64,000 nucleotides of DNA from Ruegeria arenilitoris (GTDB lineage: Bacteria; Pseudomonadota; Alphaproteobacteria; Rhodobacterales; Rhodobacteraceae), in NCBI RefSeq assembly GCF_013031355.1, contig NZ_WPZO01000002.1, positions 372,001 through 436,000 of the forward strand, in the 5' to 3' direction. Within the stretch, counting starts at the first letter, position 1; the number at the start of each line of letters is the position of its first letter. Below the pieces are notes generated by a model that had not been told where the DNA came from, did no database searches, and was given only the letters and a program-made list of their open reading frames with translations. The translations under genes were made by a program, and so were the position numbers. Shown here one piece after another: positions 46,013 to 64,000 of the stretch.

Positions 46013-47359
46013 TCATGTCATGTTTTCGGGGGAAGGCGAGGGGCGTGCTCGCCTGTTGCGATTGCGAAACCTGAGATACCGACCACCCAGCCATTTTATC
46101 AACCTTTTGATCCCGATCCCGGACCGGAATTCAAACTCTTCGTTCTGGAATTGCCGGTTTTCAACACCATAGTGTTTCAATCCCTTCTTGAGTGCCTCCT
46201 GAAGGGAACGCGGCCCGCAGAAAGAAACTTTGGCTCGCGAAAGACCAGGCCCAACTGCATTAGAAATCATTTCTGCGCTGATGCGTTGGCCTTCACCCGA
46301 AGCGACAATATGCAGTGTAAGATTTGGCCTGCAGGCAGCCAGCTTTTCGATCTCACTTAAGTGCGGCGCTACCGTTCTCGACTTGATACAATAAAACAGG
46401 TCGACCGGTTCGCTTTCTGCTTTCAGGTTCTCGGCCCAGACAAGGAATGGCGTGATCCCAATCCCTCCCGCAATCCAAACCTCAGGACCTTTACCGGCAT
46501 AGCGAAACTTTCCAAAGGGACCTGCGACACGTACCCGCTGGCCTATTCTCAAAACCTTATCCAGAGTTGACGTGAAATCCCCAAGCGCCTTCACTGTCAC
46601 GCACACTGTGCCGTCATAATCAATTTTCGAGAAACTGAACGGATGAGGTTCATTTATTCCGGCGCCGGTGAAGCGCAGGACTCCAAATTGCCCAGGTAAT
46701 GGGCGTATCCCTTTACCTTTTGGTGCAAGTGTAATGGCCAATGCTCCGCCGGTGGTTTCAAGCTTTGCGATTTTATAGCGATAAGATGGGCGCAGTCTGT
46801 GCGGCAGCAACATCCACAGATAGGCGACTATTCCGGCCACACAGAACGACCCCGTATACAGCCCTGCAGGATCGGTCATCGCAAAGGGTTTGGTGATCAG
46901 GAAAAAATGCAAAGCGCCAACCGCAAACAGGGCACCCATTGCTTTATGTGACCACTTCCACAGATGATAAGGAATAAAAGTCGCCACTGATATGAGAACC
47001 AGTAGCAGTAGGCCATACAAACTGATTTCGCCGAGGGATTCAGCAAAGTCATTCAATGCGGTTTCACGACCCAGCCCGCGCATTTCAGCGCCTATCGTAT
47101 CGTGCATCAGGACCGCCCCCATTGCCACGATGCCTGTCCATTTATGGAGGATGTAGACACGGTCCAAGCCACCGAACAGATGCTCGATACCCGGCAGGCG
47201 TGTGGACAGCATCTGGCTCCATGCCATTAGAATAAGCGCGGCAAGCCCCAGATACTGGGAAAACAACGCGGCTTGGTCAGTGATACCTGGCAGGGAAAAG
47301 AGCTGATATGCCGGGACAAGCACCGTTGCTGCGATCAGAATGAGGCCGATTGGGTTCAT
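46013..47359 (-). CDS. Ferric-reductase-like membrane flavocytochrome (FRD/FNR type)
   Basis: Product of 448 residues. The N-terminal half has about six hydrophobic helices with paired His in DRVYILHKWTGIVAMGAVLMH and the HLWKWSHKAMG/GALHFFL region, the usual haem ligands. The C-terminal half is an FAD/NAD(P)H reductase: PLPGQFGVLRF, PHPFSFSK for FAD and GGIGITPFLVW for the nucleotide. It moves electrons from cytosolic NAD(P)H across the membrane, for example to ferric iron or oxygen. The start at 47359 (MNPIGLILIA) drops an unlikely 17-residue prefix. A C-terminal basic tail (RFRNRNRRARPSP) is unusual. Confidence 0.88.
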   Translation of the reverse strand: MNPIGLILIAATVLVPAYQLFSLPGITDQAALFSQYLGLAALILMAWSQMLSTRLPGIEHLFGGLDRVYILHKWTGIVAMGAVLMHDTIGAEMRGLGRETALNDFAESLGEISLYGLLLLVLISVATFIPYHLWKWSHKAMGALFAVGALHFFLITKPFAMTDPAGLYTGSFCVAGIVAYLWMLLPHRLRPSYRYKIAKLETTGGALAITLAPKGKGIRPLPGQFGVLRFTGAGINEPHPFSFSKIDYDGTVCVTVKALGDFTSTLDKVLRIGQRVRVAGPFGKFRYAGKGPEVWIAGGIGITPFLVWAENLKAESEPVDLFYCIKSRTVAPHLSEIEKLAACRPNLTLHIVASGEGQRISAEMISNAVGPGLSRAKVSFCGPRSLQEALKKGLKHYGVENRQFQNEEFEFRSGIGIKRLIKWLGGRYLRFRNRNRRARPSPSPENMT

Positions 47360-47553
47360 GACTGGTTCTTTTCTGAGAATGGGTTCATCGTTGCCGGGAA
47401 GCTGCAACACCCGACAAAATTGGCCGATCAGCAGACTTCAAGCGTCATAGGCCAAAGGTTTAGGCACATCACGTTGCGAAAATTGACCTAAACTGGCCGA
47501 GCCCATGTCAGTCGCGTCACTTTGCCTGATATTGAAGCTCTCGAAGAGAGATT

Positions 47554-50600: not shown

Positions 50601-52030
50601 GCGCTTAGTCCGACGCCGCTCGCCACGATGGCTCCGGTATTGGTGAGTTGGCCGCTGACATCGTTAACCTGGATGCCACGTGCGAAACCCGCGCCATTGC
50701 TCGCCCGGGCATCGGCGAAAATCGCCCCGCTGTTGAGCAGAGTACCCGAGACGTTGCTGGCCGCTATCCCTCTGGCCTGCGCTTGGCTGATACCGCCTGC
50801 GATAACATTGACGGGCGCAGAGTTCGATACATTGCCAGCAACATTGCCGAAGTCGAATCCGTCGGCATTTGCGGTTGTAGATGTAGCAAGTGCCTGAATA
50901 TTCACTGTGCCCGAATTGTCGAAATTCGCGCCGTCGCCCACGCCCCCGATATCGAACCCATCTGCAACAGCGTTTCCGCCGAAACCCCGCCCGGAAACCA
51001 TCCCCGAGTTGGTCAGTGTTCCGCTCAGGCCGGAGACTTTGACGACGTCATAGTCTGCTCTTCCGGTGTTACCCGCTGTCATCTCGACAGTAAGTGCGCC
51101 GCTGTTTTGCAGACGCCCGGAGAGGCTGTTTATCTCAATTGCGCCCCCGGTTGCCTGGTTTCCACCAGCTGCCAACACATTGATGGCCCCGGTACTGTTA
51201 AATTCCCCTGACAGACGATCAATTTCAACACCGGCCGCGCGGCCAATATTTGTTCCGGATGCAGATGCACTAATGGGGCCGGAGTTATCGACCGTTCCGT
51301 TGATTGTCACAAAGGACATGCCAAATCCGAAAGCCGACCCGCCAGAGCTTGAGACATCAATACCAATGCTGCCGCTGTTACTCGCAGCTCCGTTCACAAC
51401 GTCGGCCGTTAGTCCAATTGCAATAGCTCTGCTGCTGTTGTTGCCCCGAAGATCGATTGTCCCACTGTTGAACAGTGTGCCATCGAGTTGATTGACTAGA
51501 ATACCCACAGAGGTGCCGGAGGTCAGCGCTGAATTTGCGATACTGATAACGCCAGTGTTTTGTACCGAACCTGTCGTGTTCCCAGAGACATCTACTCCAA
51601 AGATCACTGCTGAGTCGCCGGATGAGGCACCCATCGTGATGGAGCCCGAGTTCAGAACAGCGCCTGACAAGTCACCATTGATGTCGACCGCTGCACGAGT
51701 CCTGACGTTCGCCTCTGGGGCTGTCAGTTGCCCGGCGTTCGTCACTGTGCTGGAATAATCCGCCACGTTGACCTGAACCAAGGCAGGCCCCGGCAAACGG
51801 TTGATGCTGATCGACCCGGTGTTCGAGATGGTGTGGTCTTCATCCACACTACTGATCAGCGGCGTGGTTCGTGCCCCATTGACAACCTCTGCCAGCGAGG
51901 ACCCTGCCGAGACGGCCAAAACCGAGGCGGAGCACAAGAACAGCGAGGGCGCAATGCTCGCCACTTTTCCCTTCCACTTGGTTAGACGTCCCCCGCGCGC
52001 GAACGCGTGTACCCTCTGCTCGACCTGCAT
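47699..52030 (-). CDS. Giant autotransporter with NSGTI/A-x-GI repeat passenger
   Basis: Product of 1443 residues. The N-terminal extension MQVEQRVHAFARGGRLTKWK leads into a hydrophobic signal segment ending near SSLAEV. The passenger (~60-1130) holds more than 25 units of ~34 residues, each with a strand NSGxI or NTGxI followed by AxGI(x)3-6 and GxxxNSG, a likely beta-helix. The C-terminal ~270 residues are the barrel, ending ASYEWKF. The paralogue at 63571 is near-identical through the signal region. A membrane LuxR-type regulator and a LytTR regulator lie upstream on the same strand. Expected role: surface adhesin or biofilm protein. Confidence 0.9.
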   Translation of the reverse strand: MQVEQRVHAFARGGRLTKWKGKVASIAPSLFLCSASVLAVSAGSSLAEVVNGARTTPLISSVDEDHTISNTGSISINRLPGPALVQVNVADYSSTVTNAGQLTAPEANVRTRAAVDINGDLSGAVLNSGSITMGASSGDSAVIFGVDVSGNTTGSVQNTGVISIANSALTSGTSVGILVNQLDGTLFNSGTIDLRGNNSSRAIAIGLTADVVNGAASNSGSIGIDVSSSGGSAFGFGMSFVTINGTVDNSGPISASASGTNIGRAAGVEIDRLSGEFNSTGAINVLAAGGNQATGGAIEINSLSGRLQNSGALTVEMTAGNTGRADYDVVKVSGLSGTLTNSGMVSGRGFGGNAVADGFDIGGVGDGANFDNSGTVNIQALATSTTANADGFDFGNVAGNVSNSAPVNVIAGGISQAQARGIAASNVSGTLLNSGAIFADARASNGAGFARGIQVNDVSGQLTNTGAIVASGVGLSAGGPVGVSNNGGATGISTGTILGGLTNNGDITATGRGRRASVYGIDAGNVDNALVNTGAITLTANATGSGSATGIHTGRLNGTLQNSGSIAIQLSAADHASAYGIDVGEIYGALSNSGSITIQVDNGSSIEAIGIRSSTVQGTFSNSGNITVASHGSTGSAEGLRAGSIAATGTMTNTGTITAIAEGQGSGAGAEGIRILGRVAGTLENSGQIIAQAVDTSSATATGILTGAVDGSITNSGTVTAAAGGGSFAYVEGIEVRGNVDGSFNNSGAITAQAVGTSSAYVDGINVIDVSGTFSNSGVVSVSAQAAFAGAEGLSLDDIQGSVDNSGDISAIASGTGTARASGINLGAIDGRFSNSGSIVASAATASSGAPFPFQRAVATGIYVDNINEDPMGGSGVFENSGAIAASASGLNASALGLRFSHVGGKLSNSGNISVSVVADQGSTAFAAGITGANVRDSGDVLNSGTLQVSAAGQNVSTVAAVGMSFDQIGKTVSNAGAISVSAQGDTLVRAHGITTAALSTGGVLSHSGSISVSASGGTDTEAYGIFVGSAQGTVNVTGDVSAASSGKSYAVFLGDGGGTLNVESTADIDGTIRVSDHDVNLSNVGGRVVYRFQDDDTANGVFTTSVSSASQGWFVDNEGGAAPVYASFDATELQPNTNQTFEIAGLSYNLARQLDRADVGTASRDRVVLSTRGSGPIEGFRPYFLVSGSKSDGTAGGSSSALSSNLWSVSAGVTRDLGTGLRYGFGASYFKNDGTFGTSSFDTSGVFISGIVAQNFGFADLSFGLGYGDLDNDETHSSGNVTSEADYSSDMITALVAAERDLALKNGAILTPRASFLYGEQNLDGYTETGGTANATVGDRTVTFNETRIGGAYATSMLGGRLSASLDAVRRDADAPSVVDVTIFGNTLALASGGGGTDTFGEVGLNFEKPFHHGGILHLEARSTLGADVSTQALWASYEWKF

Positions 52031-52186
52031 GTTTCCTGCCCCATCTGGCTAAAGATTTTGTTGTGCGCGAGCAGAGCTGGTTACCCTGCGTCACCCCTTC
52101 AATGCGCATTTGCTTGCACACTCAGCATTGGGCTTGAAGGGTCAAAAAGGGCGATAATGAGGCTGTTTAGGCAATATTGAACCTTG

Positions 52187-52213
52187 GTTTATGCGGCTTA
52201 CACCTTAGTTTAT
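52187..52213 (-). promoter_or_regulatory. ATAAAC direct repeats, 21 bp apart, upstream of the giant autotransporter
   Basis: On the minus strand ATAAACTAAGGTGTAA and ATAAACCAAGGTTCAA are spaced exactly 21 bp (two helical turns), ~160-185 bp before the autotransporter start. The same pair with the same spacing occurs at 63385-63411 before the paralogue. Further blocks are shared: TATCGC(C/T)CTTTT, GGGTGACGCA and the leader AGCCAGATGGGGCAG. The rest of 52031-52626 holds no gene. Confidence 0.6.
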
Positions 52214-52626
52214 CGCCAACGAAATTTCACAGATTTGAAACCATGAAATGCCGATGTACCAAGGCGTGTGCCTTGGAGTTTGCATCGACGAAACAGAGCC
52301 CCTTAGTCACCCGATTTAAGGTGCTGGCGGGAGAATGAATGGCCTGAAATCTCATTCGAAAACCCGGTGTAACCGGTTCAATGGTGTTTTGTCGTATGTT
52401 CAGGAAACAAGGGTAACCAACCGGGCTCTCATTAACCTACCGGACGAGGTCAAACACAGTGCCTCGGCCTTAACTTATTCAGATGGTCGTGAGGTTACCC
52501 GCATTGAGGAACAGGGTAAAAGTAGCAGAAAGGCACTGTGAAAAATCCTTTCACCGGGGCGCCTTGGAAACAGGGCCGGGGGCTAAGCGCCAGGCTGAAA
52601 CGAAGCCGCTCATACTTTCTTGGGGG

Positions 52627-53118
52627 TCAGTTTTGCTTTGATCCGTCGCCGGTAAGATCTTCCAAGAGAGCGCTGAAAAGCTGCGATTTGTTGGAGAATC
52701 CTGACTTCCTGTAGATAGAGTTTGTTTGTGCCTTCACAGTGCCTTCTTTCGCATCTCTGGCTTCGGCAATCTCTGCGGTGGAGCATCCTTTCAGAAGAAG
52801 TCGCGCTACATCCCTCTCGGCTCTGGTGAATGACCATTTGTCAAAGTAGCCCACCAATAGCTCCTCAAACGCTTCTGAGGCACGGCTCGCATTTCCCTCA
52901 AGTTTTATCACGTGGTGACCCATACGGAGCAACTCGACTCCAAGGGCTATGATCGAACCCAACAAACACAGCATGACGATAATTGCCCAGATGTGGTAAT
53001 CGTCCCAGTTGTGCACCCATGCCAATCCCATCGCTTCGCTAAACTCTTCCAGAAGCATCAGGAGCGCCGCGGCAAGTGATGCAAAGAATGATAGCGTCAG
53101 ACGTTCTTTGGAGGGCAT
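52627..53118 (-). CDS. Membrane-anchored LuxR-type HTH regulator
   Basis: Product of 163 residues with an unusual plan. Two transmembrane helices at ~7-27 (LTLSFFASLAAALLMLLEEF) and ~42-64 (IIVMLCLLGSIIALGVELL) are separated by a short loop, then comes a linker helix and a LuxR-type HTH (~100-160): TRAERDVARLLLKGCSTAEI, GTVKAQTNSIYRKSG. There is no receiver or autoinducer domain. The start MPSKERLTLS (53118) matches the paralogue at 62818 exactly in position, so an upstream in-frame extension of 38 codons is rejected. It lies 597 bp upstream of the autotransporter it probably controls. Confidence 0.88.
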   Translation of the reverse strand: MPSKERLTLSFFASLAAALLMLLEEFSEAMGLAWVHNWDDYHIWAIIVMLCLLGSIIALGVELLRMGHHVIKLEGNASRASEAFEELLVGYFDKWSFTRAERDVARLLLKGCSTAEIAEARDAKEGTVKAQTNSIYRKSGFSNKSQLFSALLEDLTGDGSKQN

Positions 53119-53283
53119 TTTGGTAAGTTCTTTCGAGTTGCCGGTGACTGTTACGCCGGTCGTTACTTCTGTTTGCGGTGTCGGGGCTGACCAGCTTTGC
53201 CATGTCGAAGGATGCGATTTCGAAAAATCCAAACTGACGGGTCTAAGCGGTGGGGCGATTTTTTGTTTCTGCCTGCCCGCAAT

Positions 53284-54138
53284 TCAGCATTGTGCTTTTT
53301 CGTTTCTTGTTGCGGGTCCCGTCTGATCGATGCTGAAAGACTGCGCCTTGCGCTGTTCAATGGTCTCTTTAACCTTGGACACCATCTTTCGGCTTATCGA
53401 ATACGCATTGCCGCTTGGGGTCACGACGTAGGGATTTCCATTTTTGTAGACCAATTCGTCTATTTGCTTTTTCGACAACCACCTCGATCGGTGGATTAGC
53501 AAACCGGCATCAGGGTCCAAGCTCTGAGTAGCGCTTTTCAGTGTCATTCGTATCAGCTGCGTGCCGTTTTCAGTTGTGACCGACACATACTGGTTCTGCG
53601 CTTCGATCATCAGCAACGGGCCGCGATTTGCCTCGTCGAGCTTCATCTGGATCGGACATTCCATTTGTCTTGGAGGACGCCGAAACAGGTATTTCAGCGG
53701 GTCGTATCCGAAACCCTTCACCGCCTGAGCCCTGAAGTGCAAAAATATGGCGTAGGTAACCACAGTCGAGACAAATGCAGAGGTAAGGTAATAAAGGACT
53801 GCGTGTCCAAGAGACGATCCGCCCGCCAGCAGGTGGGTCACAATGAAGGTCTTAAGGAATAGAATTATCAGATAGCTTCCCAACGTGGTCCAAAACACAC
53901 AAATGGAGTTGCGAATGGACCAGTAGAACAGGGTGGGCCCCGCGAAAAAATAAAACGCGTAGAATGCAATCACCCAAGCCAACACGTACAAAGCGTGTTG
54001 AACCTGGCTGATGTTCGGAACTGCATGTCCCCGCTCTACAATCACAAGAGCCAGAAAGACCACGGCGTAGGCTGAAATGAAGACTTTGTCTTTCATCAAG
54101 CCACGCAGCCAGACAGCAAGTTCAGCCTTTGTCAGCAA
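53284..54138 (-). CDS. Membrane-bound LytTR-type DNA-binding regulator
   Basis: Product of 284 residues. Four hydrophobic segments occupy ~17-165 (VFISAYAVVFLALVIV, LYVLAWVIAFYAFYFFAG, LGSYLIILFLKTFIV, LTSAFVSTVVTYAIFL), followed by a C-terminal LytTR domain (MIEAQNQYVSVTTENGTQLI, then IHRSRWLSKKQID). The start is TTG 54138, preceded by GGGGAG at 9 bp; the upstream frame (Cys/Trp-rich) does not look coding. It lies 165 bp upstream of the membrane LuxR-type gene on the same strand. Two membrane-tethered regulators next to one autotransporter suggest joint control by an envelope signal; this is inference. Confidence 0.8.
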   Translation of the reverse strand: MLTKAELAVWLRGLMKDKVFISAYAVVFLALVIVERGHAVPNISQVQHALYVLAWVIAFYAFYFFAGPTLFYWSIRNSICVFWTTLGSYLIILFLKTFIVTHLLAGGSSLGHAVLYYLTSAFVSTVVTYAIFLHFRAQAVKGFGYDPLKYLFRRPPRQMECPIQMKLDEANRGPLLMIEAQNQYVSVTTENGTQLIRMTLKSATQSLDPDAGLLIHRSRWLSKKQIDELVYKNGNPYVVTPSGNAYSISRKMVSKVKETIEQRKAQSFSIDQTGPATRNEKAQC

Positions 54139-54764
54139 CGAAATATGCTCCCCAGGAAACCAACACTTCGGACATTTCTGCTTGCTACCACTACCGGAAA
54201 GCTGACCGTCGGTGCGGCGCCAGTTCCAGATCCGACGCAAACAGGCTTTCGCCGGAGGTAATAGTACCGCAATCTGGTGCGGCCAGATAGCGATCGAATG
54301 GGTTCTGGGCATAGAGTCGCTGTTCAAACGCAGGCCTGACCCGATTAGCATGGCGCTTGAGCGCGAAAGTCATGAAGACCACCTCTATTCCCATAACGTC
54401 TTTCCGCTACAGGGTTACGATCCAACAAACGTCGAATTTGCCCGACACGCCGATTTTCCTCAGCAAGAAATCCCAAACCTGGAATTCCGTCCGGTGGAAC
54501 CATTTCCTCGAGGTCCACCCGATGCGGAACCTATAGCTGAATGCGCCTCATCAAAAACCGGCCAAAGTACGAGAAATCGCGCTTTGGTGCGAATAACTGG
54601 CGTTTTGGTGCGAGTAACGCGCGCGGACAGCTATGGCATAGGCTTGATGCAAACCCTGCTGATCTGGGCCCGAGTTCGCTGATATGGCATCACTGACCGA
54701 ACGATTGATGCGATTTCGCGGGCTCAACCCATCGCGCTGGGCGCCTGCGCGCTGCAAAGGGAAT
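54139..54764. other. Intergenic region with a 21-bp tandem repeat
   Basis: Two copies of a 21-bp unit lie at 54577-54597 and 54598-54618, sharing the core TTTGGTGCGAATAAC / TTTGGTGCGAGTAAC; a weaker third copy precedes them. Competing frames on both strands exist but none has a good start or domain. A minus-strand stretch (NPFDRYLAAPDCGTITSGES near 54300-54240) is protein-like and may be a remnant. Confidence 0.35.
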
Positions 54765-55679
54765 CTACGCCACCGGTTTTTCCCACGGTGGATGTGTGGC
54801 AATTTCGGCGATCAGGAAATCCATAAACACGCGAACCTTGGGCGACAGAACGTTTGATTTTGGATAGATAAGCCACAGAACGTTCTCTTCTGCGGCTTCA
54901 TAGTCGGGCAAGACATGCCTTAGCTTGCCTGATGCAAGCTCTTCGTGGACGCTCCAAAGCGAATTCATCGAGATACCGGCACCAGCGACGGTTGCGATCT
55001 TTTGGCTGAGGCCATCATCCATGATCAGCGGACACTTGGTTGCCCCCGGATCGAACGTCGCGGTAGCGCCACCCGCGGATTTCAGTGTGCGCGCGCGGAT
55101 ATGGCGGAATGCGATGAGTTTGTGGTTTGTCAGATCGTCCGGGGTTTCCGGTACGCCATGCTCGTCCAGATAGTGAGGTGCGGCGCATAAGATGCGTCTG
55201 TCATCCGCCAGCTTTCTCCCCTTGAGGCTGGTGTCGACCAGCGGCGCGTTCCGCAGTGCAAGATCATAGCTGCCCTCGATCAGGTCGAACTGGGTGTCCG
55301 ATAGACGCAGGTCCAGCGTAACTCCCGGCTGTTGATCCTGAAACTTCGCAAGGATTGGCGCGATGTATAGCTGGGCAAACGTGCTGGGTGCGGTAAAGCG
55401 AAGGGTACCGGTGGCTTGTGCCGCACCTTGTCCCAAAGCGGCTAAAGCGGTCTCTTCCTGTGCCAGAATCTCACGCGCGTAGGGCAGGAACTCGGCCCCT
55501 TCCACCGACAGGGAAACTTTGCGCGTCGAGCGATGAAGAAGTTCAACCCCCAGTTGGAGTTCCAGTTTGGCAAGCCGTGCACTGGATACAGACGGAACCA
55601 ACCCCAGTTCCCGTCCCGCGGCCGAGATGTTTAGCTTGTCCGCGGCAAGAACGAAAAGGCGAAGGGCTTGGGTATCCAT
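54765..55679 (-). CDS. LysR-type transcriptional regulator
   Basis: Product of 304 residues. HTH: LRLFVLAADKLNISAAGREL and VPSVSSARLAKLELQLGVELL; the effector domain starts TGTLRFTAPSTFAQLYIAPI. It belongs to the branch with short-chain aromatic/redox-responsive LysRs (similar layout to the gene at 60014). Divergent from the nitroreductase operon that starts at 55790. The 110-bp spacer has an imperfect dyad, ACCGAAAACTG with CAGTTTTATCGGT (55702-55735), as a likely binding site. It probably controls the five-gene redox cluster. Confidence 0.92.
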   Translation of the reverse strand: MDTQALRLFVLAADKLNISAAGRELGLVPSVSSARLAKLELQLGVELLHRSTRKVSLSVEGAEFLPYAREILAQEETALAALGQGAAQATGTLRFTAPSTFAQLYIAPILAKFQDQQPGVTLDLRLSDTQFDLIEGSYDLALRNAPLVDTSLKGRKLADDRRILCAAPHYLDEHGVPETPDDLTNHKLIAFRHIRARTLKSAGGATATFDPGATKCPLIMDDGLSQKIATVAGAGISMNSLWSVHEELASGKLRHVLPDYEAAEENVLWLIYPKSNVLSPKVRVFMDFLIAEIATHPPWEKPVA

Positions 55680-55789
55680 AGCTCAATTATAAGCAAAAAC
55701 CGAAAACTGAAACCCGTTTTCCCCAGTTTTATCGGTTTCTGCAAGTGTTATTTCGGGGTCAACGAAAGACACATCAGATGGAGTCACAA

Positions 55790-56485
55790 ATGTCCGTTCG
55801 TCCTAACGTCCAGTCACAGATCCTCGAAGCCTTCAATTTTCGGCACGCGACCAAGATCTTTGATCCCGAGAAGAAGATCAGCGATTCCGAATTCGAAACC
55901 ATTCTTGAGGCCGGGCGCCTGTCTCCAACTTCCTTTGGGCACGAGCCGTTCAAAGTCCTGATCATCCAGTCGCCCGAGATGCGCGAGCACTTTCGGGAAT
56001 TTTCCTGGGGCGCAAACGGAATGATGAACGGCAGCACGGGCCAATTGGGCACGGCGAGTCATTTCGGGATCATTCTTGCCAGCACCGCGGAAACCATGAC
56101 CGCAGGGTCCGAATATCTGCAGGACCACTACCGCACGGTGAAACAACTGCCTGATGATGTCATCGAGCTGTTCAACGGTGCCTACGGCAAATTTCAATCA
56201 ACGGACCACCGCGTCACCTCCGACCGTGAGATTGCGGATTGGTCCGGCAAGCAGGCCTATATCGTCCTGGCCAACATGATGACAGCGGCGGCCCTGATGG
56301 GGATCGACTCTTGCCCGATCGAGGGGTTTGACATGGAACTGACCACCGAGGCGCTTTCCATGCATTTCGATGTGGATACGACCAAGTGGAGACCGGCGGT
56401 CATGTTCGCGTTCGGACATCGGGCCAGCGATCCTCAATTCCCGAAGACCCGCCGCTCGATGGCCGAGACTGTGAGCTGGTTCTAA
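55790..56485 (+). CDS. Nitroreductase-family NAD(P)H flavin oxidoreductase
   Basis: Product of 231 residues, NfsB/YdgI-like FMN protein: FNFRHATKIFDPEKKIS at the start, ILEAGRLSPTSFGHEPFKVL for the FMN-phosphate region, and MTAAALMGIDSCPIEGFD near the C-terminus. The ATG at 55790 has GGAG 6 bp upstream and is preferred over 55778. First gene of a plus-strand operon (CmcJ-like, LLM enzyme, SDR and crotonase follow). The family reduces nitro, quinone or enone groups; its partner enzymes suggest a pathway substrate rather than general detoxification. Confidence 0.92.
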   Translation: MSVRPNVQSQILEAFNFRHATKIFDPEKKISDSEFETILEAGRLSPTSFGHEPFKVLIIQSPEMREHFREFSWGANGMMNGSTGQLGTASHFGIILASTAETMTAGSEYLQDHYRTVKQLPDDVIELFNGAYGKFQSTDHRVTSDREIADWSGKQAYIVLANMMTAAALMGIDSCPIEGFDMELTTEALSMHFDVDTTKWRPAVMFAFGHRASDPQFPKTRRSMAETVSWF

Positions 56486-56540
56486 GGCCGCCTCGAAAAG
56501 CGCAAAGGCTGCCCGATCAGGGTAGGGAAGGAGAAATCGG

Positions 56541-57317
56541 ATGCAAAGAACTGGTATCGTAAACTACCACGTCCACAAGCCGGAGCGGCAGGCGTTCGAG
56601 TTGGACGCCGGTGGAATTGTAGGCAATCTGATTTCGCCTGAACTGGCACCCACCAAAGTGCCTCTTACCGACATGCGCGGGTCGGCGCAGCCTTTACGCT
56701 TTGCGGAAGACGGGGTCGAGTTTGCTTTCGCCCCGAGTTCTTTGACCGCGTTTTCCGGTGATAGCTGGGCGCAGACCTATGATAAGGAGATCACGCGCCT
56801 GCTGACGGGCAAGTTGGCTGCCCGCGAGGTCGTGGTCTTTGATCATACGGTTCGGGTGGATGACCCGAAAGCGACACGCAAGCCAGCGCGCAATGTTCAC
56901 AGCGACTATAGCGAGAATGGCGCCAGACAACGTCTGATCGACTTGCTTGGTCCAGAGGCGGCCGCGGAATGGGAGCAAGGCCATTATGCGTTTGTCAATC
57001 TGTGGCGCCCGGTTCAACATGCAATCAATAGCGCGCCTCTGGGCTTTGTTCGCACAGCAAGCATTGACCCGGACGACTGGGTTTTGCTCGACCTGATCTA
57101 CCCGGACCGCAAAGGCCAGATCATGGGGCTTGTGGGCAATGAGAACCACGATTGGCTTTACCTGTCCAAGATGACGCCCGATGAGGTCGCGGTGTTCAAT
57201 ATCTATGACAATCAGGGACTGCCTTCGGTCGCGCATAGCGCGCTCGATATGGTCGAGGACCCGACGGTCACAACCCCGCGCAAAAGCATCGAGAGCCGCA
57301 CTTTGGTGCGCTACTGA
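56541..57317 (+). CDS. CmcJ/NvfI-type oxidoreductase (GA4-desaturase-like family)
   Basis: Product of 258 residues resembling the fungal/bacterial family that includes CmcJ, AsaB-like and GA4-desaturase proteins. Conserved blocks visible are PARNVHSDYSENGARQRL, FVNLWRPVQHAINSAPLGF, and NIYDNQGLPSVAHSALDM near the C-terminus. Several members act as oxygenases or C-S/C-N modifying enzymes, often in secondary metabolism; iron-ligand assignment is not certain. It sits between a nitroreductase and a flavin-dependent monooxygenase-like enzyme. Such a gene in a short bacterial redox operon is uncommon and hints at an unusual small-molecule substrate. Confidence 0.8.
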   Translation: MQRTGIVNYHVHKPERQAFELDAGGIVGNLISPELAPTKVPLTDMRGSAQPLRFAEDGVEFAFAPSSLTAFSGDSWAQTYDKEITRLLTGKLAAREVVVFDHTVRVDDPKATRKPARNVHSDYSENGARQRLIDLLGPEAAAEWEQGHYAFVNLWRPVQHAINSAPLGFVRTASIDPDDWVLLDLIYPDRKGQIMGLVGNENHDWLYLSKMTPDEVAVFNIYDNQGLPSVAHSALDMVEDPTVTTPRKSIESRTLVRY

Positions 57318-57330
57318 GCGAGGAGTCATC

Positions 57331-58296
57331 ATGTTGGATAAGAGCCAAAACCCGGCATTTGTCCCAATCAACAAGGCCTTCAACCAGGTGTTTCGCCCCA
57401 ATCGGCTGAGCATTGGACTCGTAATCCCGTTAGAAGCTTACGCGGTCGGCGCCGAACCGACTATGAAAGGTCACCTTGAAGCGGCTCAACTGGCCGAGCG
57501 GCTGGGGTTCTCGGCGCTTTGGCTGCGGGATGTGCCCTTCAACGTGCCCAGCTTTGGTGATGCGGGTCAGATCTTTGATCCCTTCGTCTATCTTGGTGCT
57601 CTGGCAACCGTGACGGATCGCATAGCGCTTGGGACAGCGAGCATCGTTTTGCCCCTGCGCCATCCGGCGCATGTCGCCAAGGCCGCGGCGTCGGCGGATG
57701 TGCTGTCCGGTGGACGGTTGCTATTGGGGGTCGCGTCCGGCGACCGGCCCGAAGAATACCCGGCTTTGAACCAAACCTATCCGGATCGCGGGGAACGGTT
57801 CCGTGACAGTGTCGGCTATATCAGCGCCGTTGGGGCGTCCTATCCCACACACGAAAGCAGGCAGGGCCATCTTTCCGGCAATATCGACCTGTTGCCGAAA
57901 CCCACGGGCGCGCGCTTGCCCCTGTTGATCACAGGAGGCAGCCAACAATCGCCCGACTGGATCGCCCAAAACGGAGACGGGTGGATGACCTATCCCCGGG
58001 ATGTGGCGTCGCAGGCGCGTGTCGTGTCAGATTATCGGGATCGACTGGCAAAGATGGGACAACCGGACAAACCGGTGATGCAATCGCTCTACGTCGATTT
58101 GCTTGAGGAGCCCGACGCCCCGGCGCGTCCGATCCACTTGGGTTTCCAATCAGGCACGACCTTCCTGCGCCGATACCTGCGCGACATCGAGGCCATGGGG
58201 GTGAACCACGTCGCCCTGAATCTGAGGTTTAACCAGACCTCCATCGAAACAACGCTCAAACGTCTGGCAGACGATCTTCTGTCCGACTTTTCATAG
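57331..58296 (+). CDS. Luciferase-like (LLM class) flavin-dependent oxidoreductase
   Basis: Product of 321 residues with the bacterial-luciferase TIM barrel: LSIGLVIPLEAYAVGAEPTM, LGFSALWLRDVPF, TDRIALGTASIVLPLRHPAH (flavin contact) and LSGGRLLLGVASGDRPEEY. It uses reduced flavin or F420 for monooxygenation or reduction; FMN is likelier here. The ATG at 57331 follows AGGAG at 5 bp, 13 bp after the previous stop. The nitroreductase-type gene two places upstream could supply reduced flavin, though that is inference. Confidence 0.9.
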   Translation: MLDKSQNPAFVPINKAFNQVFRPNRLSIGLVIPLEAYAVGAEPTMKGHLEAAQLAERLGFSALWLRDVPFNVPSFGDAGQIFDPFVYLGALATVTDRIALGTASIVLPLRHPAHVAKAAASADVLSGGRLLLGVASGDRPEEYPALNQTYPDRGERFRDSVGYISAVGASYPTHESRQGHLSGNIDLLPKPTGARLPLLITGGSQQSPDWIAQNGDGWMTYPRDVASQARVVSDYRDRLAKMGQPDKPVMQSLYVDLLEEPDAPARPIHLGFQSGTTFLRRYLRDIEAMGVNHVALNLRFNQTSIETTLKRLADDLLSDFS

Positions 58297-58308
58297 AAGG
58301 ACAATGAC

Positions 58309-59097
58309 ATGACCAAGACCATTCTTGTCACGGGTGCAACCGACGGTATCGGACTGCTTACGGCCAAAAAGCTTGCGGGTGATGGCCATCGAGTCCTATT
58401 GCATGGCCGCAACCCGTCAAAGCTGAAAGCCGCCCAAGAAGCCGTTGGAGGCCAGGCCGAGACATACAGTGCGGATCTCTCGGATATGTCAGCGGTGGTC
58501 GGGCTTGCTGCAGCTATCCGGGCCAAAAACGGTTCACTGGATGTATTGATAAACAACGCGGGTGTCTTGAAGGCACCGCAACCTGTGCTCGAAAACGGGC
58601 TTGATATCCGCTTTGTCGTCAACACGTTTTCGCCGTATCTGCTGACCGAGTTGCTGTTGCCAATCATGCCCGCAACCGGACGTGTCGTGAACCTGTCGTC
58701 GGCGGCTCAGGCACCGGTGGATATCGGTGCGATGCAGGGTGAAACACGTCTGTCCGATATGGGAGCGTATGCCCAAAGCAAACTGGCAATTACAATCTGG
58801 ACCCGTGAGTGGGCCAGGGAACTAGCCGGCGGGCCGGCTTTGATTGCCGTGAACCCGGGCTCGCTGCTTGCTTCAAAGATGGTCAAGGATGGCTTTGGCG
58901 TTGCGGGCAACGATCTCAACATCGGGGCAGATATCCTGATCGAAGCCGCGCTGGGCGATCACTTCTCAAATGCGTCAGGGCGTTATTTCGACAATGACAG
59001 TGGCGCGTTCGCCGACCCGCATCCCGCGGCGCTGAACACCGAGCACGCAACAGATGTGATGAGGACAATTCGCGCCATTACGCGCCAGCAAAGTTAA
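58309..59097 (+). CDS. SDR-family NAD(P)-dependent oxidoreductase
   Basis: Product of 262 residues with a normal classical-SDR core: TGATDGIGLLTAKKL, structural NNAG (INNAGVLKAPQ), catalytic Ser in VNLSSAAQAPVD and YAQSK (YxxxK intact). HGRNPSKLKAAQ after the second strand suggests NADP preference. Relatives resemble retinol-dehydrogenase-like and WW-domain-type reductases. Fourth gene of the redox operon, 12 bp after the LLM gene. It likely handles a carbonyl/alcohol step of the same pathway. Confidence 0.92.
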   Translation: MTKTILVTGATDGIGLLTAKKLAGDGHRVLLHGRNPSKLKAAQEAVGGQAETYSADLSDMSAVVGLAAAIRAKNGSLDVLINNAGVLKAPQPVLENGLDIRFVVNTFSPYLLTELLLPIMPATGRVVNLSSAAQAPVDIGAMQGETRLSDMGAYAQSKLAITIWTREWARELAGGPALIAVNPGSLLASKMVKDGFGVAGNDLNIGADILIEAALGDHFSNASGRYFDNDSGAFADPHPAALNTEHATDVMRTIRAITRQQS

Positions 59098-59168
59098 GCC
59101 GCGCTCCCCCAATCGTCTAACCCCACCCCTCGCATCAGCGATGCCGAGGGCCAAGAAAGGACTGTTCA

Positions 59169-60017
59169 ATGAAATATGAAAACTTCCAAACATTCGATGT
59201 GAAGGTCGAAAATGCGGTCGCCACGGTAACGTTCGATTTCGGGACGGTAAATGTTCAGGGCCAGGAGATGTTGGCGGACCTCAACAGCCTTGCCATGCGG
59301 CTGGAGCGGGACAGGGACACCAAGGTAGTGGTTTTCCAATCCGCAAACCCGGAGATTTGGGTTTGTCATTACGATACAGAGCTGCTCAAGGACATGTCGA
59401 CCGAGGCCGTTTCGCGCGAAGATGTCCAGTTGCTGGACCTGCAATCAGTCTGTGAACGCCTCAGCAAAGTCCCTCAGGCCACCATCGCCAAACTTGAAGG
59501 CTTTGCACGCGGCGGCGGGCATGAGCTGGCGCTTGCGCTGGATATGCGCTTTGCGGCCCGTGGGAAGTTCAAGTTCATGCAGATGGAGGTCGGCATGGGT
59601 ATCCTGCCCTGTGGCGGCGGCGCGTCACGGATGGCGCGTCAGACCGGTCTTGGGCGCGCGCTTGAAATCATTCTGAGTGCTCAGGACTATGATGCAGATG
59701 ATGCTGAACGCATGGGAACGATCAACAAGGCGTTGGAGCCAGATGAGATCGGCCCTTACGTCGATGCGCTGGCGAACCGCATCGCGCAATTCCCGGCTGA
59801 ATCGATAAATGCCTGCAAGCAAATGGTCTACGAATCCATCGATAAGCCCATTGCCGAAGCTCTGAAGGCAGAAGCCTATTGGCTTTATCAGGCGACAAGC
59901 AAAACACCTGCGGTCAACCGCTTCAGGATTGCCGACGAGCAGGGCTTGGAACACGACATCGAAAATCAGCGCAATTGGAATGAACTTGTCATGAAGGTGC
60001 AGGAGATCACTGGCTAA
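59169..60017 (+). CDS. Crotonase/enoyl-CoA hydratase family protein
   Basis: Product of 282 residues with the crotonase fold. FARGGGHELALALDMRFAA has the oxyanion-hole GGG and a Glu at the usual first acidic position. In the second segment (MQMEVGMGILPCGGGASRMAR) the normal catalytic Glu site is replaced by LPC, so simple hydration is doubtful. Other reactions of the superfamily (dehalogenation, decarboxylation, isomerisation) are possible. Last gene of the operon, 71 bp behind the SDR, with its 3' end overlapping the convergent LysR gene by 4 bp. Confidence 0.88.
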   Translation: MKYENFQTFDVKVENAVATVTFDFGTVNVQGQEMLADLNSLAMRLERDRDTKVVVFQSANPEIWVCHYDTELLKDMSTEAVSREDVQLLDLQSVCERLSKVPQATIAKLEGFARGGGHELALALDMRFAARGKFKFMQMEVGMGILPCGGGASRMARQTGLGRALEIILSAQDYDADDAERMGTINKALEPDEIGPYVDALANRIAQFPAESINACKQMVYESIDKPIAEALKAEAYWLYQATSKTPAVNRFRIADEQGLEHDIENQRNWNELVMKVQEITG

Positions 60018-60901
60018 GCGCAAAATTCCTCGACCAGAAAATCGAGAAACACGCGTACCTTTGAGACGACATAGCGCCGGGACGGATACACCGCATAAAG
60101 TGAGGTTTCATTTGGTGTCCAATGCTCTAACGCAGCACAAAGCCGGCCCGACGCAAGATCGTCCGCGACATACATGCGTGGAATAAGGCTCAGGCCAAAT
60201 CCAGCGCGCAGGGCATCGCGAACCGCAAGGCTGGAGGAGACCTTGTAGCGGCCGTTAACCGGAACGCTGACTGAACGGTTGGCGTTCCGAAAAGACCATT
60301 TCGCGGCATGGTCCGATAAGCTGAACTGGATGCAATTGTGCTGCGAAAGATCTTCGGGTCGTTCGGGCCGTCCATGCGCGTCGAAGTAAGACGGGGCTGC
60401 GCACAGCACATGTTCCATGATCATCAGTTTGCGCGCGATGAGACCTGAATCCTCAAGGCTGTCACTGCCGCGCAAGGCAATATCAAACCCTTCTTCGACC
60501 AGGTTAACCCGTCTGTCATCGAGATTCAGATCCAAAGACACCTCTGGATAGCGGTCCAGAAACTTTGGAATTGCGCCCGACAAACCAACAAGTGTGGCCG
60601 TCACCGGAGCGCTGACACGCAGTAAGCCGCTCGGCGTGCTCTGACCGGCTTGAAGGGTTCCGTCCGCCTCCTCGAGATCGTCCAGGATTTGAACGACGCG
60701 TTCGAAATACAACGATCCCGCTTCGGTCAGGCTCATTTTACGGGTGGTCCGGTTGATCAGGCGCGCCGAAAGATGCGTCTCCAACTCACTGACGTTCTTG
60801 CTGACCGCTGCAGGCGAAAGGCCAAGATGACGGGAAGCCGCTGCAAAGCTGCCGCGCTCTACGACGGTGCGAAATATATTGAGTGCTGTCATGTGATCCA
60901 T
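60014..60901 (-). CDS. LysR-type transcriptional regulator
   Basis: Product of 295 residues: HTH with LNIFRTVVERGSFAAASRHL and SPAAVSKNVSELETHLSARL, effector domain from LLRVSAPVTATLVGLSG. It belongs to the CrgA-type branch. Its 3' end overlaps the crotonase gene tail-to-tail and its start faces the nitroreductase at 61054. A perfect 19-bp dyad (60905-60923) lies directly before the start codon and fits a LysR T-N11-A site, suggesting autoregulation plus control of the 61054-62622 pair. Confidence 0.92.
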   Translation of the reverse strand: MDHMTALNIFRTVVERGSFAAASRHLGLSPAAVSKNVSELETHLSARLINRTTRKMSLTEAGSLYFERVVQILDDLEEADGTLQAGQSTPSGLLRVSAPVTATLVGLSGAIPKFLDRYPEVSLDLNLDDRRVNLVEEGFDIALRGSDSLEDSGLIARKLMIMEHVLCAAPSYFDAHGRPERPEDLSQHNCIQFSLSDHAAKWSFRNANRSVSVPVNGRYKVSSSLAVRDALRAGFGLSLIPRMYVADDLASGRLCAALEHWTPNETSLYAVYPSRRYVVSKVRVFLDFLVEEFCA

Positions 60902-60904
60902 GTT

Positions 60905-60923
60905 TATTCACTATCAGTGAATA
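60905..60923. promoter_or_regulatory. LysR-type operator candidate
   Basis: TATTCACTATCAGTGAATA has 8-bp arms around ATC and contains T-N11-A. It begins 4 bp from the LysR ATG (60901), so bound regulator would block its own promoter or leader. It is shared with the divergent nitroreductase promoter. Confidence 0.6.
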
Positions 60924-61053
60924 GTGTTGTTACCAATCGCTGAATTATCAACTCAGATACATGGGCCTACTTTTGCATGAGATCGGCGGATCGTCTCAAC
61001 CGCGCCCGTCATCCCGAACGAAGACCCAATGCAAACAAACACGAGAGCCTGAA

Positions 61054-61668
61054 ATGCGCCCTGAAAGAAACCCGGACTATCCGATTGACCCGCTTTTCCT
61101 GTCGCGCTGGTCGCCACGGTCCTTTGACGCCTCTGCGATGCCCGAGCCACATCTGCTCACCATTCTCGAAGCCGGTCGTTGGGCGCCGTCCGCATTCAAC
61201 GTTCAGCCGTGGCGGTTCCTCTACGCCATGCGCGACAGCACGCATTGGTCGGCCTTTGTTTCCCTGCTCGACCCGTTCAACCAGAATTGGGCCACCGACG
61301 CCTCGGCATTGGTTTTCCTGGTATCGGACACGGTAATGCCGGGTGACGAAAACCGACCCGACAAACCCTCTCGTTACAACAGTTTCGATGCAGGGGCGGC
61401 GTGGGTGCAGATTGCACTTCAGGCCGCGGCACTCGGCTACGCCGCGCATGCGATGGCAGGACTTTCCTTTGAACGGGTGCCACACGTGCTGGAGTTGCCG
61501 GATCGGTTCCAGATCGAAATAGGGATCGCGCTCGGGCGTCAGGCCGATGCAGCACGTTTGCCGGAAGACCTGAAAGCGCGCGAAGTGCCAAGCGGACGGA
61601 TGCCACTGGACCAGATTTCCTTTCCGGGGCCCTTTCCAAGCCGTTTCAACACAATTGCAGCCGAGTAG
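61054..61668 (+). CDS. Nitroreductase-family protein
   Basis: Product of 204 residues. FMN-binding segments: LSRWSPRSFDASAMPE, ILEAGRWAPSAFNVQPWRFL and a late GAAWVQIALQAAALGYAAHAM. The ATG at 61054 (MRPERNPDYP) starts where the family begins; the frame reaches back 31 codons without good coding character. It is only distantly like the nitroreductase at 55790, so not a recent copy. It forms a two-gene operon with the EamA-type exporter 10 bp downstream, opposite a LysR gene. The pairing suggests reduction of a foreign compound and efflux, which is inference. Confidence 0.9.
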   Translation: MRPERNPDYPIDPLFLSRWSPRSFDASAMPEPHLLTILEAGRWAPSAFNVQPWRFLYAMRDSTHWSAFVSLLDPFNQNWATDASALVFLVSDTVMPGDENRPDKPSRYNSFDAGAAWVQIALQAAALGYAAHAMAGLSFERVPHVLELPDRFQIEIGIALGRQADAARLPEDLKAREVPSGRMPLDQISFPGPFPSRFNTIAAE

Positions 61669-61677
61669 GAGTTCATA

Positions 61678-62622
61678 ATGCCGCTTCGACCGACCAATTC
61701 TGCCTCGGACCTGCCGGTTCATGGGTTAATGCTGACGGCGACTTTTCTGGTGGCCACATCGTTTCCGGTCGCGGCCGCGATAACGGGCGGCCTGGATAGC
61801 GTTGTGCTTACTTTGATACGCTTTGCTCTGGCGACCCTCTTATTTGCACCAATCGTGTTGTGGCGATACGGGCTGGTTATCCCCAAGGCATCCGATTTCT
61901 TGCGGTACGGCGTGCTCAGCATCCTGCTGGTCACGTTCTTCTGGTGCATGTTTACGGCCCTGCGCATGACCTCCCCCCTCAATACAGCGGCGATATTTGC
62001 GTTGAACCCCATTATCACGGCGACCCTGGCCGCAGTGCTTTTGCGTGAGAGGATGTCGTTGTCAGCACGTGTCGCATTGCCCATCGGGGCAATTGGAGCG
62101 ATCTGGGTCATTTTTCGGGGTGATCCCACAGCCTTTATGGCACTTGAGTTTGGCACAGGCGACATCGTGTTCCTTGCGGGTACATTCGCGCTTGCGGCCT
62201 ATGGCACGCTGGTAAAGGTCCTGCACCGGGGCGAGCCAATGGCCCAAATGACGTTCTGGATTCTCGCGACCGGATCAGTATGGCTGCTTTTGCTGTCTCT
62301 GCCAAAGCTCGGTAATGTCCAATGGTCTGCGATCCCTTTCGGCGTATTCGCCGGGATCGCCTACCTGTCGATTTTCACCACGATCGTGACATTCTTCGCC
62401 TTCCAATGGAGTACGACTAGGATCGGTCCGACCCGGGTTGCAGCTTATACGTTCCTGAACCCGGCGCTGGTCCTTGTCATCGGACTGGCATTCGGGGGCA
62501 CGCCGCCACCCTTGGCGACATGGCCCGGCGTGATGCTGGTGATCGTGGCGACGGTCGTTTTACAGTCAAACCTGCAGGCCGGAAGGCGCAAGCAGCGGTC
62601 AAAACCCTGCCCGACACCATAA
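61678..62622 (+). CDS. EamA/DMT-family transporter
   Basis: Inner-membrane protein of 314 residues with ten hydrophobic helices in two EamA repeats. Typical segments are FALNPIITATLAAVLLRERMS at the end of repeat one and FLNPALVLVIGLAFGG near the end of repeat two. The C-terminus is short and basic. Such proteins export or import metabolites and drugs; the substrate is unknown. Co-transcribed with the nitroreductase 10 bp upstream. About 195 bp of non-coding DNA separate it from the next gene. Confidence 0.92.
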   Translation: MPLRPTNSASDLPVHGLMLTATFLVATSFPVAAAITGGLDSVVLTLIRFALATLLFAPIVLWRYGLVIPKASDFLRYGVLSILLVTFFWCMFTALRMTSPLNTAAIFALNPIITATLAAVLLRERMSLSARVALPIGAIGAIWVIFRGDPTAFMALEFGTGDIVFLAGTFALAAYGTLVKVLHRGEPMAQMTFWILATGSVWLLLLSLPKLGNVQWSAIPFGVFAGIAYLSIFTTIVTFFAFQWSTTRIGPTRVAAYTFLNPALVLVIGLAFGGTPPPLATWPGVMLVIVATVVLQSNLQAGRRKQRSKPCPTP

Positions 62623-62817
62623 TTCTGAACACGGAACGCCACCTGAACCGGCGCACCGAAGGAACCGCAGACCTTCGAGCCGCGGAGGGTGCTCCCCTTC
62701 AATCGTTGCCTCTCTGCCGCGCAAATACGTGAACCCGCTTGAATGCCTTGACGAAGCTGCTGGTTTGATATGCATCGGACAAACACGAGCCACCTAAAAA
62801 AAGCAGCGAGACTATCT

Positions 62818-63306
62818 ATGCCTTCCAAGAAACGCCTGACCTTTTCTTTCTTTGCCTCACTCTTCTGTGCCTGCGTCATGTTGTTCGAAGACATTGGCGA
62901 AGCCATGGGAGTGGCCTGGATTGATGAATGGGACGATATTCACGTCTGGGAGGTTCTGATCATGTTGTCCCTGTTTGGTGCAATCATGGTGCTGGGCATC
63001 GAAGTTCTGAAAATGCGCCGGTATCAGGAGACGCTGGAGGACAAGGTTGCGCGCGCTTCGAGTGCGTTCGAGGATCTGTTGAACGCCTATTTCGAGAAAT
63101 GGTCCTTCTCGGATGCAGAGCGTGACGTGACCCGTCTTTTGATCAAGGGCTGTTCGACCGCCGAAATGGCCGAGATTCGTAACGCCAAGGAAGGCACCAT
63201 CAAGGCGCAGACCAACGCGATCTACAAAAAGTCGGGCTATGGTGGCAAAACGCAGCTGCTCAGCGCGCTTCTTGAGGACCTGACGGACGGCGGATCGGTC
63301 GCCTGA
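62818..63306 (+). CDS. Membrane-anchored LuxR-type HTH regulator (paralogue of 52627)
   Basis: Product of 162 residues colinear with the protein at 52627-53118. It starts MPSKKRLTFSFFAS, has two membrane helices (~7-26 and ~42-63), the shared EAMGxAW segment between them, and the HTH SDAERDVTRLLIKGCSTAEM with GTIKAQTNAIYKKSGY. Identity is high through the HTH and lower in the helices. No sensory domain other than the membrane part is present. The start is fixed by agreement with the paralogue; a 16-codon upstream extension is rejected. A terminator follows, so the autotransporter has its own promoter. Confidence 0.9.
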   Translation: MPSKKRLTFSFFASLFCACVMLFEDIGEAMGVAWIDEWDDIHVWEVLIMLSLFGAIMVLGIEVLKMRRYQETLEDKVARASSAFEDLLNAYFEKWSFSDAERDVTRLLIKGCSTAEMAEIRNAKEGTIKAQTNAIYKKSGYGGKTQLLSALLEDLTDGGSVA

Positions 63307-63324
63307 AGCCGACTGCACGCACAG

Positions 63325-63352
63325 GGCGCGGTGGTCAAACACCGCGCCTTTT
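63325..63352 (+). terminator. Rho-independent terminator of the membrane LuxR-type gene
   Basis: GGCGCGGTG and CACCGCGCC form a 9-bp stem around GTCAAA, followed by TTTT. It begins 18 bp past the stop codon and separates this gene from the autotransporter promoter. Confidence 0.85.
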
Positions 63353-63384
63353 CCCTAACCGGGGCCGGGAAGTCTCATAGTTGA

Positions 63385-63411
63385 ATAAACCCCTGACCGA
63401 ATTGCATAAAC
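63385..63411 (+). promoter_or_regulatory. ATAAAC direct repeats, 21 bp apart, upstream of the second autotransporter
   Basis: ATAAACCCCTGACC and ATAAACCAAAGTTC begin at 63385 and 63406, exactly 21 bp apart, ~160-185 bp before the start codon. Sequence of the downstream copy, spacing and distance match the site at 52187-52213. TATCGCTCTTTT, GGGTGACGCA and AGCCAGATGGGGCAG follow in the same order. Candidate binding site of the paired LuxR-type regulators. Confidence 0.6.
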
Positions 63412-63570
63412 CAAAGTTCTAAACCGTCGGTTTAGCCACATTTCCGCCTTCTATCGCTCTTTTAACCCCGTTCATGGGTGTGCCAACACATGGCGCATCG
63501 AGTGGGTGACGCAAGGGAAACAACCTTGCGGATCCGGGGAACGGAGACCAGCCAGATGGGGCAGAATTAC

Positions 63571-64000
63571 ATGCAGACCGAGCAAAGAGTTCGTGCGTTC
63601 GCGCGCGGGGGGCGTTTGACTAAGTGGAAAGGTAGAGTAGCGAGTATTGCGCCCTCGCTCTTGCTGGGCTCGGTGTCGTTAGTGGCCGTTTCGGCCGCCT
63701 CGGGACATGCCGAGGTGATCGATAGCGCGCGGACCACTCCGTTCGTCAGTGTTGTGGACGAAGACCTGAGCATCACGGGCACCGGATCGATCGATGTGAA
63801 CCCTCTTCCCGGGCCGGGTCTGGTTGTGTTCGCTCTTCCGGATTACACAAGCACCCTAACCAACGCCGGTCAGTTGTCCTCGGCAGAGGGGATCAACCGG
63901 ACACGTGCGGCGATCAACATCAGTACCGACCTGTCGGGAACAATCCTCAATTCGGGCACGATCACGATGGGCGCGTCAGCAGGTGACAGCGCCGACCTTC
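63571..64000 (+). CDS. Autotransporter paralogue, 5' part only (runs out of window)
   Basis: The first 143 residues are visible. MQTEQRVRAFARGGRLTKWK, the hydrophobic signal segment and RTTPFVSVVDEDLSITGTGS closely follow the protein at 47699-52030, as does the first passenger part (LPGPGLVVF, TNAGQLSSAEGINRTRAAIN, ILNSGTITMGASAGDSAD). The ATG at 63571 is used because the paralogue starts at the same place; an in-frame ATG at 63556 is out of frame in the paralogue. Preceded by a paralogous membrane LuxR-type gene, it is the second copy of a two-gene module. Confidence 0.88.
   Translation, partial: MQTEQRVRAFARGGRLTKWKGRVASIAPSLLLGSVSLVAVSAASGHAEVIDSARTTPFVSVVDEDLSITGTGSIDVNPLPGPGLVVFALPDYTSTLTNAGQLSSAEGINRTRAAINISTDLSGTILNSGTITMGASAGDSADL

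Follow-up and report, generated by a model that had tools for sequence, protein, structure and literature searches.

Transmembrane transcription regulators (TTRs) are one-component proteins that join a membrane region to a DNA-binding domain, and they constitute a widespread general class (PMC10269533). In Eggerthella lenta, LuxR regulators combine 10-12 membrane helices with a C-terminal LuxR-type helix-turn-helix (HTH) domain, and control of nearby genes has been shown for DadR, HcdR and CadR (PMC9734109). The ipuR-upaE operon of uropathogenic E. coli carries a gene for a predicted LuxR-type regulator followed by an autotransporter (AT) gene, the role of IpuR in upaE control being unclear to its authors in the accessible part of their report (PMC6083910). 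Here, we describe two gene pairs of Ruegeria arenilitoris (genome of 4.9 Mb in 31 contigs), each comprising a small membrane regulator with a LuxR-type HTH (reg1, reg2) and an autotransporter (AT1, AT2), within a 64,000-nucleotide stretch of DNA that was analyzed as a whole (positions 372001-436000 of its contig; hereafter the window). Judged from sequence, the tie between this kind of transmembrane one-component regulator, equipped with a LuxR-type HTH, and surface adhesins is real and beyond chance. Each pair probably works as a one-component switch that is tethered to the membrane and serves a surface autotransporter, most likely as an activator, with a remodelled sensory loop. The main gain is a candidate DNA site, which makes the idea directly testable. 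The four genes are the following:

reg1: 52627-53118, minus strand; two-helix membrane protein with a LuxR-type HTH, 163 residues (open reading frame, PF00196 at 31.5 bits, hydropathy).
AT1: 47699-52030, minus strand; probable type Va autotransporter of 1443 residues with an RGGRLTKWKGK leader and a C-terminal F (open reading frame, homology to a PF03797-matching AT).
reg2: 62818-63306, plus strand; paralogue of reg1, 162 residues (open reading frame, 61-63% identity to reg1, AlphaFold2 model).
AT2: 63571-64000 in the window, with its stop at window coordinate 68013 (contig 440013), plus strand; 1480 residues.

The initial annotation had reported two regulator-autotransporter pairs in the same gene order on opposite strands, and the coordinates confirm them, with 61-63% identity between reg1 and reg2 and 80% between AT1 and AT2 over their last 450 residues. 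Several of its details needed correction: the regulator-AT gap is 596 bp in module 1 vs 264 bp in module 2 rather than equal, the regulators are separated by 9.7 kb rather than about 11 kb, and the autotransporters, called giant, have only 1443 and 1480 residues. A simple block duplication of the module was considered and rejected: the AT1 and AT2 barrels share 80% identity, yet reg1 has 51-63% identity to the eight further AT-linked regulators compared, and regulator and barrel identities do not run in parallel. A third regulator of this genome, reg3, is more distant and is flanked by a PepSY_2 protein on one side and an outer-membrane beta-barrel protein on the other.

The regulators, of 162-163 residues, are laid out as a first helix (~7-23), a short loop, a second helix (~45-61), a long helix and the LuxR-type HTH. 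The AlphaFold2 model of reg2 (69 sequences, mean predicted local distance difference test score 80.9, predicted template modelling score 0.57) contains helices at 4-29 and 38-95 and a four-helix domain at 99-156, and against the PF00196 cut-off of 23.5 bits reg1 scores 31.5 (above) and reg2 and reg3 score 21.8 and 22.5 (just below); both results back the earlier description of two hydrophobic segments and a LuxR HTH with neither a receiver nor an autoinducer domain. A family profile matched the HTH domains of GerE and VraR in the PDB (E 4e-4 to 9e-4), and the reg2 sequence alone gave no HTH match there at E 0.01. With a DNA-binding domain and at least one predicted transmembrane region in one protein, the regulator would be a TTR. 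Positive charges precede helix 1 and follow helix 2, which suggests that both ends are cytoplasmic. Homologues are present in 78 of the 196 genomes searched, and at least 3666 proteins reach E <= 1e-10 among 7998 scored candidates. The set used below comprises 172 unique regulators, obtained from 189 profile matches by removing duplicates and those shorter than 120 residues; the ten weakest genome matches (E 1e-9 and above) lie outside it, and the contig profile search covers the best 80 of 498 relatives. By a simple hydropathy scan, 160 of the 172 have two hydrophobic segments within their first 75 residues.

Ten regulators form one clade (Shimodaira-Hasegawa-like approximate likelihood ratio test support 98, in a quick tree of 105 of the 172 rows): two here, two in R. 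arenilitoris HKCCD9208, and one each in HKCCD8929-2, Ruegeria EL01, HKCCD8929, Cognatishimia SS12 and the genomes G337 and G396. Nine of them adjoin a same-strand AT, in the order regulator-AT in seven modules and AT-regulator in two, and the tenth, from G396, is divergent to a 280-residue secreted-looking protein that has no Pfam match. Judging by these gene neighbourhoods, the linkage of the clade to ATs exceeds chance. Homologues scattered without linked ATs, which the initial annotation had named as counting against its idea, are indeed found in the wide family (162/172 have no AT within two genes), not in the clade of reg1 and reg2. The flanking genes of the modules are mostly different; reg2 and one HKCCD9208 module have flanks in common, a ferric-reductase-like gene lies near both AT1 and the EL01 module, and a tetratricopeptide-repeat (TPR) sulfotransferase gene lies near both the HKCCD8929 and the Cognatishimia modules. 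In EL01 the AT frame (L045 7106-10881) is broken by a stop, and genome G029 holds an 87% identical barrel remnant (L157 8708-9166) beside a gene that is also found near the EL01 module, with no regulator match at E <= 1e-3 in that genome, a pattern that resembles joint loss of the unit; the module thus appears to decay in some strains. Within the protein, the DNA-reading part (K110, G111, R121, G126, T127, K138 and neighbours) is common to the AT clade and the rest of the family. The loop residues E24, E28, W34, D39, H42 and W44 are invariant in 10/10 clade members and are not the usual residues in the other 162, so the simplest reading of a kept HTH and a changed loop is that the output has stayed and the input is new.

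Alignment of the seven Ruegeria regulator-AT gaps reveals one well conserved block, around CATAAACCAARGT, in 7/7, and this exact 13-mer core occurs twice in the 4.9-Mb genome, before AT1 and before AT2. A full palindrome, CATAAAC-N4-GTTTATG, stands in front of PepSY-type regulator operons and is found at >=12/14 positions within 3.5 kb of 74/172 regulators, vs 1.7 on average and at most 13 for 60 shuffled arms; a locus holding two regulators may count one site twice in this figure. A matrix was trained on these 74 sites, 0/74 of which come from AT loci, which makes the AT loci a held-out test. It places the best site of the locus at most 400 bp upstream of the AT in 8/9 modules and gives the upstream site rank 3 in the ninth, and over the whole window its ranks 1 and 2 fall before AT1 and its rank 3 before AT2. 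The best upstream score is at most 1.0 in 17/17 unlinked ATs (those fetched and examined, a part of those seen), vs 7.7-15.0 in eight of the nine linked ATs and 2.2 in the other. The candidate operators are the following:

Candidate operator 1 of AT1: 52176-52193, minus strand; CATAAACCAAGGTTCAAT, 145 bp before the start codon (matrix score 15.0, window rank 1).
Candidate operator 2 of AT1: 52197-52214, minus strand; GATAAACTAAGGTGTAAG, 21 bp further upstream (matrix score 14.5, window rank 2).
Candidate operator of AT2: 63385-63422, plus strand; half-site ATAAACC at 63385 and CATAAACCAAAGTTCTAA at 63405-63422 (matrix score 7.9, window rank 3; exact core and exact tandem present).

Across 54 Ruegeria genomes, the 18-mer form with at most one mismatch gives 8 matches vs 5 for the reversed control; six lie before regulator-linked ATs, one in the interval that separates a related regulator from a divergent oxidoreductase-like gene (G007) and one within a gene (G038). 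The tandem ATAAACY-N13-CATAAACY has 6 exact matches in the same genomes, five in AT promoters and one inside a coding gene; exact matches only were used for this pattern because its reversed control with one mismatch matched in most genomes. The pattern TAAACNNNNGTTYA was rejected as stand-alone evidence, with 5 genome matches (AT1, the reg3 operon and three others) vs 15 for the reversed control.

The half-sites are also often phased. In AT promoters, TAAAC recurs at 21 bp (AT1, AT2, L044, L045), at 22 bp in L047, and as CAAAC in L046, and in the wide family GTTTA-GTTTA pairs lie at 21 bp 31 times in 88 segments (the next distance 2 times; shuffled control <=4), the TAAAC pairs there peaking at 47 and not at 21. 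Leisingera S132 has a plasmid-borne regulator with 45% identity to reg2, encoded 118 bp after the gene for a 3075-residue protein that contains bacterial Ig, cadherin-like and RTX repeats. In the region upstream of this adhesin gene, GTTTAT occurs at 5195, 5217, 5238 and 5259 (L284, 5195-5264), 21-22 bp apart, and the three best matrix matches of the 15.7 kb, though low (2.9-4.2), fall in the same region. This single case (n=1) would extend the regulator link to a second kind of adhesin.

Several observations weigh against a dedicated switch acting through this site. With one mismatch, the core occurs 5 times in the genome vs 6 for the reversed control, and the matrix score alone is unremarkable, 14.5 being reached by 31/200 shuffled windows. 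At a threshold of 12 bits, sites are present in 78/109 of the PepSY-like group, 6/14 of the outer-membrane protein (OMP) group, 2/20 of the cytochrome b561 group, 2/19 of the others and 1/10 of the AT group, a breakdown that is descriptive only because the matrix was built from these same sites; the AT group thus passes with AT1 only and has mostly weaker sites, and the site is not universal in the family, being weak or lacking among the cytochrome b561 group and the others. The AT promoters are not independent because they share ancestry, and regulator and barrel identities are uncorrelated (Spearman 0.19, 36 pairs, p 0.28), so that the phylogenies do not track. The Cognatishimia and G337 AT promoters have no 21-bp repeat, and the repeated sense-strand arm is TAAAC in AT promoters and GTTTA in the wide family and Leisingera, so that the phasing is shared while the repeated arm differs.

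The wider family sits mainly with other partners. A PepSY or PepSY-like protein is encoded within two genes of 140 of the 172 regulators, with a same-strand one in all 140; other neighbours are cytochrome b561 in 20, a reg3-type outer-membrane barrel in 14 and an AT in 10, one of these ten (L045_4970) being a different regulator merely near the EL01 module. PepSY or PepSY-like neighbours also accompany 18/20 of the cytochrome b561 group and 13/14 of the OMP group. The label is weak for many of these proteins: of the 67 direct neighbours that were scanned, PepSY_2 matches 16 and PepSY matches 12 (E <= 0.05), and the PepSY-like profile matches a clear PepSY_2 protein with a probability of 82% and E 1e-5. 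Beside the AT-linked regulators, a PepSY-like neighbour occurs in 0/10 cases, which leaves the regulator as the common factor of both site-bearing settings. On annotated plasmids, the gene order PepSY - cytochrome b - LuxR is found, and, among five relatives, the plasmid neighbourhood holds an adhesin in one (Leisingera), a PepSY - cytochrome b operon in two (L286 5020-7080, L288 4932-6363) and hypothetical or unrelated genes in two. The Sulfitobacter SK025 plasmid operon has a metal-sensing repressor and a VIT-family gene nearby, hinting at a metal or redox input.

The reading that we favour, a membrane-tethered switch for the adjacent adhesin, accords with the proposal of the initial annotation and draws support from the linkage, the AT-tied clade, the domain plan and a conserved candidate operator that is present at linked and not at the fetched unlinked ATs; these are read from the sequence, and binding by this regulator, activation, topology and signal are inferred. 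The regulator would cross the inner membrane twice, exposing a loop of ~20 residues to the periplasm, and helix 2 would continue as a long helix into the cytoplasmic LuxR-type HTH. The HTH dimer would bind TAAAC-N4-GTTTA-type sites that lie some 100-170 bp upstream of the adhesin start codon and are often accompanied by extra half-sites at a distance of 21 bp (two helical turns). Transcription would most likely be activated when the loop or the membrane helices sense an envelope signal. The clade would have its origin in a Rhodobacteraceae family found next to periplasmic PepSY or PepSY-like proteins and, in some cases, cytochrome b561, and the adhesin-linked branch would have retained the DNA-reading helix and the type of site while its sensory loop was altered. 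The related sites at AT1, at AT2 and at the reg3 operon make cross-regulation among reg1, reg2 and reg3 within the genome likely. More tentatively, a large Rhodobacteraceae family of mini membrane-tethered LuxR proteins, originally coupled to periplasmic PepSY-type proteins, may have been captured as a switch for two unrelated kinds of adhesin (autotransporters and RTX/cadherin proteins), keeping a DNA site with half-sites phased at 21 bp and changing mainly the loop; tethering would then keep the adhesin gene at the membrane, the site from which its product is exported. Such a system would let marine bacteria link the cell envelope to adhesin expression through a single protein, offers a concrete candidate DNA site for a family of at least 3666 homologues for which no function was found in the literature searched, and suggests that a regulator family can be re-aimed by changing the sensor while keeping the DNA site.

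The sign of the regulation bears on the first alternative, a membrane-tethered repressor of the AT, which we consider unlikely. Tandem operators can serve repressors, and the transcription start is not fixed by these data; however, no sigma-70 consensus promoter was found in the upstream region of AT1 or AT2, a lack that fits dependence on an activator, if weakly, and for which activation is preferred. LuxR/NarL-type HTH proteins are often activators, and this weakens the repressor further. It is rather improbable that the site belongs to another transcription factor controlling PepSY-type operons and ATs while the regulator acts elsewhere: binding by the regulator rests on inference and the site is weak or missing near many family members, but the PepSY and AT settings have the regulator in common and no PepSY gene, and unlinked ATs of the same genus have no site. 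The initial annotation had suggested alternative adhesins, each under a private switch and expressed one at a time, to which one may add that reg1 has diverged (Cys17 is lost, though retained in 90% of the clade and in 86% of the remaining members), that the AT1 site is closer than the AT2 site to the reg3 operon site, and that module 1 holds 12 inverted-repeat pairs, with one perfect 13-nt pair (52530-52542 / 52733-52745) spanning the end of reg1 and reaching into it (the ipuS repeats have only 7 nt). This is very improbable, as both promoters carry the same core, the HTH motifs and recognition helices of reg1 and reg2 are nearly identical, the shared sites suggest co-regulation of AT1 and AT2, and 62600-63600 contains no inverted repeat of >=10 nt, recombinases not having been searched for. 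An invertible promoter element like that of ipuR-upaE finds no support in module 2 and may be present in module 1.

Concerning the adhesins, AT1 and AT2 give no direct Pfam match, and both are clearly homologous to other ATs that do match PF03797: the C-terminal 430 residues of AT1 are 32% identical (E 5e-47) to the AT at 32374-35262, itself a PF03797 match, and the AT1 barrel profile weakly matches the EstA autotransporter 3kvn (E 6.7e-5). The RGGRLxKWKGK-type leader, earlier put forward as a mark of regulator-linked ATs, was rejected in that role, being carried by regulator-free ATs too, including the one at 32374-35262. A TPR-sulfotransferase (PF13469) gene on the opposite strand adjoins 13/17 of the fetched regulator-free ATs and lies near 2/9 regulator-linked ATs; the window itself offers an example at 30062-32158 (minus strand) with the AT at 32374-35262 (plus strand), and L146 and L158-L172 are further loci. 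This recurrence suggests that the TPR-sulfotransferase is a dedicated modifying enzyme of these ATs, and no literature combining autotransporter, sulfotransferase and tetratricopeptide was found among open-licence papers. Around module 1, a LytTR protein (PF04397, 45.4 bits) with four hydrophobic segments is encoded at 53284-54351 (minus strand), 165 bp upstream of reg1 and on the same strand, and would be a second membrane-tethered regulator next to reg1. A ferric-reductase-like protein (PF01794) is encoded after AT1 at 46013-47410 (minus strand), and the gene for its EL01 relative (L045 4970-6954) has a 4-bp overlap with the end of another family regulator. No structured RNA in 45000-64000 matches Rfam at the gathering threshold.

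A search of open-licence papers returned no literature that joins a two-helix LuxR regulator to an AT or that describes this regulator family, the DNA site or the association with adhesins. The view that no described system has this plan calls for some narrowing, since a LuxR-AT operon (PMC6083910) and membrane LuxR proteins (PMC9734109) have been published. The ipuR-upaE operon resembles the present modules in joining the genes of a predicted LuxR-type regulator and of an AT; in contrast, it is driven by an invertible promoter element, and IpuR is not described as a membrane protein in the accessible part of that report (PMC6083910). The nearest named model, NCBIfam NF047608 (LIC13292 family), matches the long helix and the HTH but yields only 47-68 bits (reg1 46.7, reg2 49.4, reg3 68.3) against a curated cut-off of 200, and no literature on LIC13292 was found among open-licence papers. 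TTRs likewise combine a membrane region with a DNA-binding domain in a one-component protein, but they are a general class, and the accessible part of that report names neither PepSY nor a two-helix LuxR family (PMC10269533). The E. lenta regulators share membrane helices and a C-terminal LuxR-type HTH with those of Ruegeria, whereas they belong to Coriobacteriia, have 10-12 helices rather than two segments and govern catabolic enzymes (PMC9734109). The PepSY / cytochrome b561 / LuxR-HTH operons of Rhodobacteraceae carry the same regulator family and, in 78/109 of the PepSY-like group at >=12 bits, the palindrome; they differ in having PepSY-type proteins instead of an adhesin and another sensory loop.

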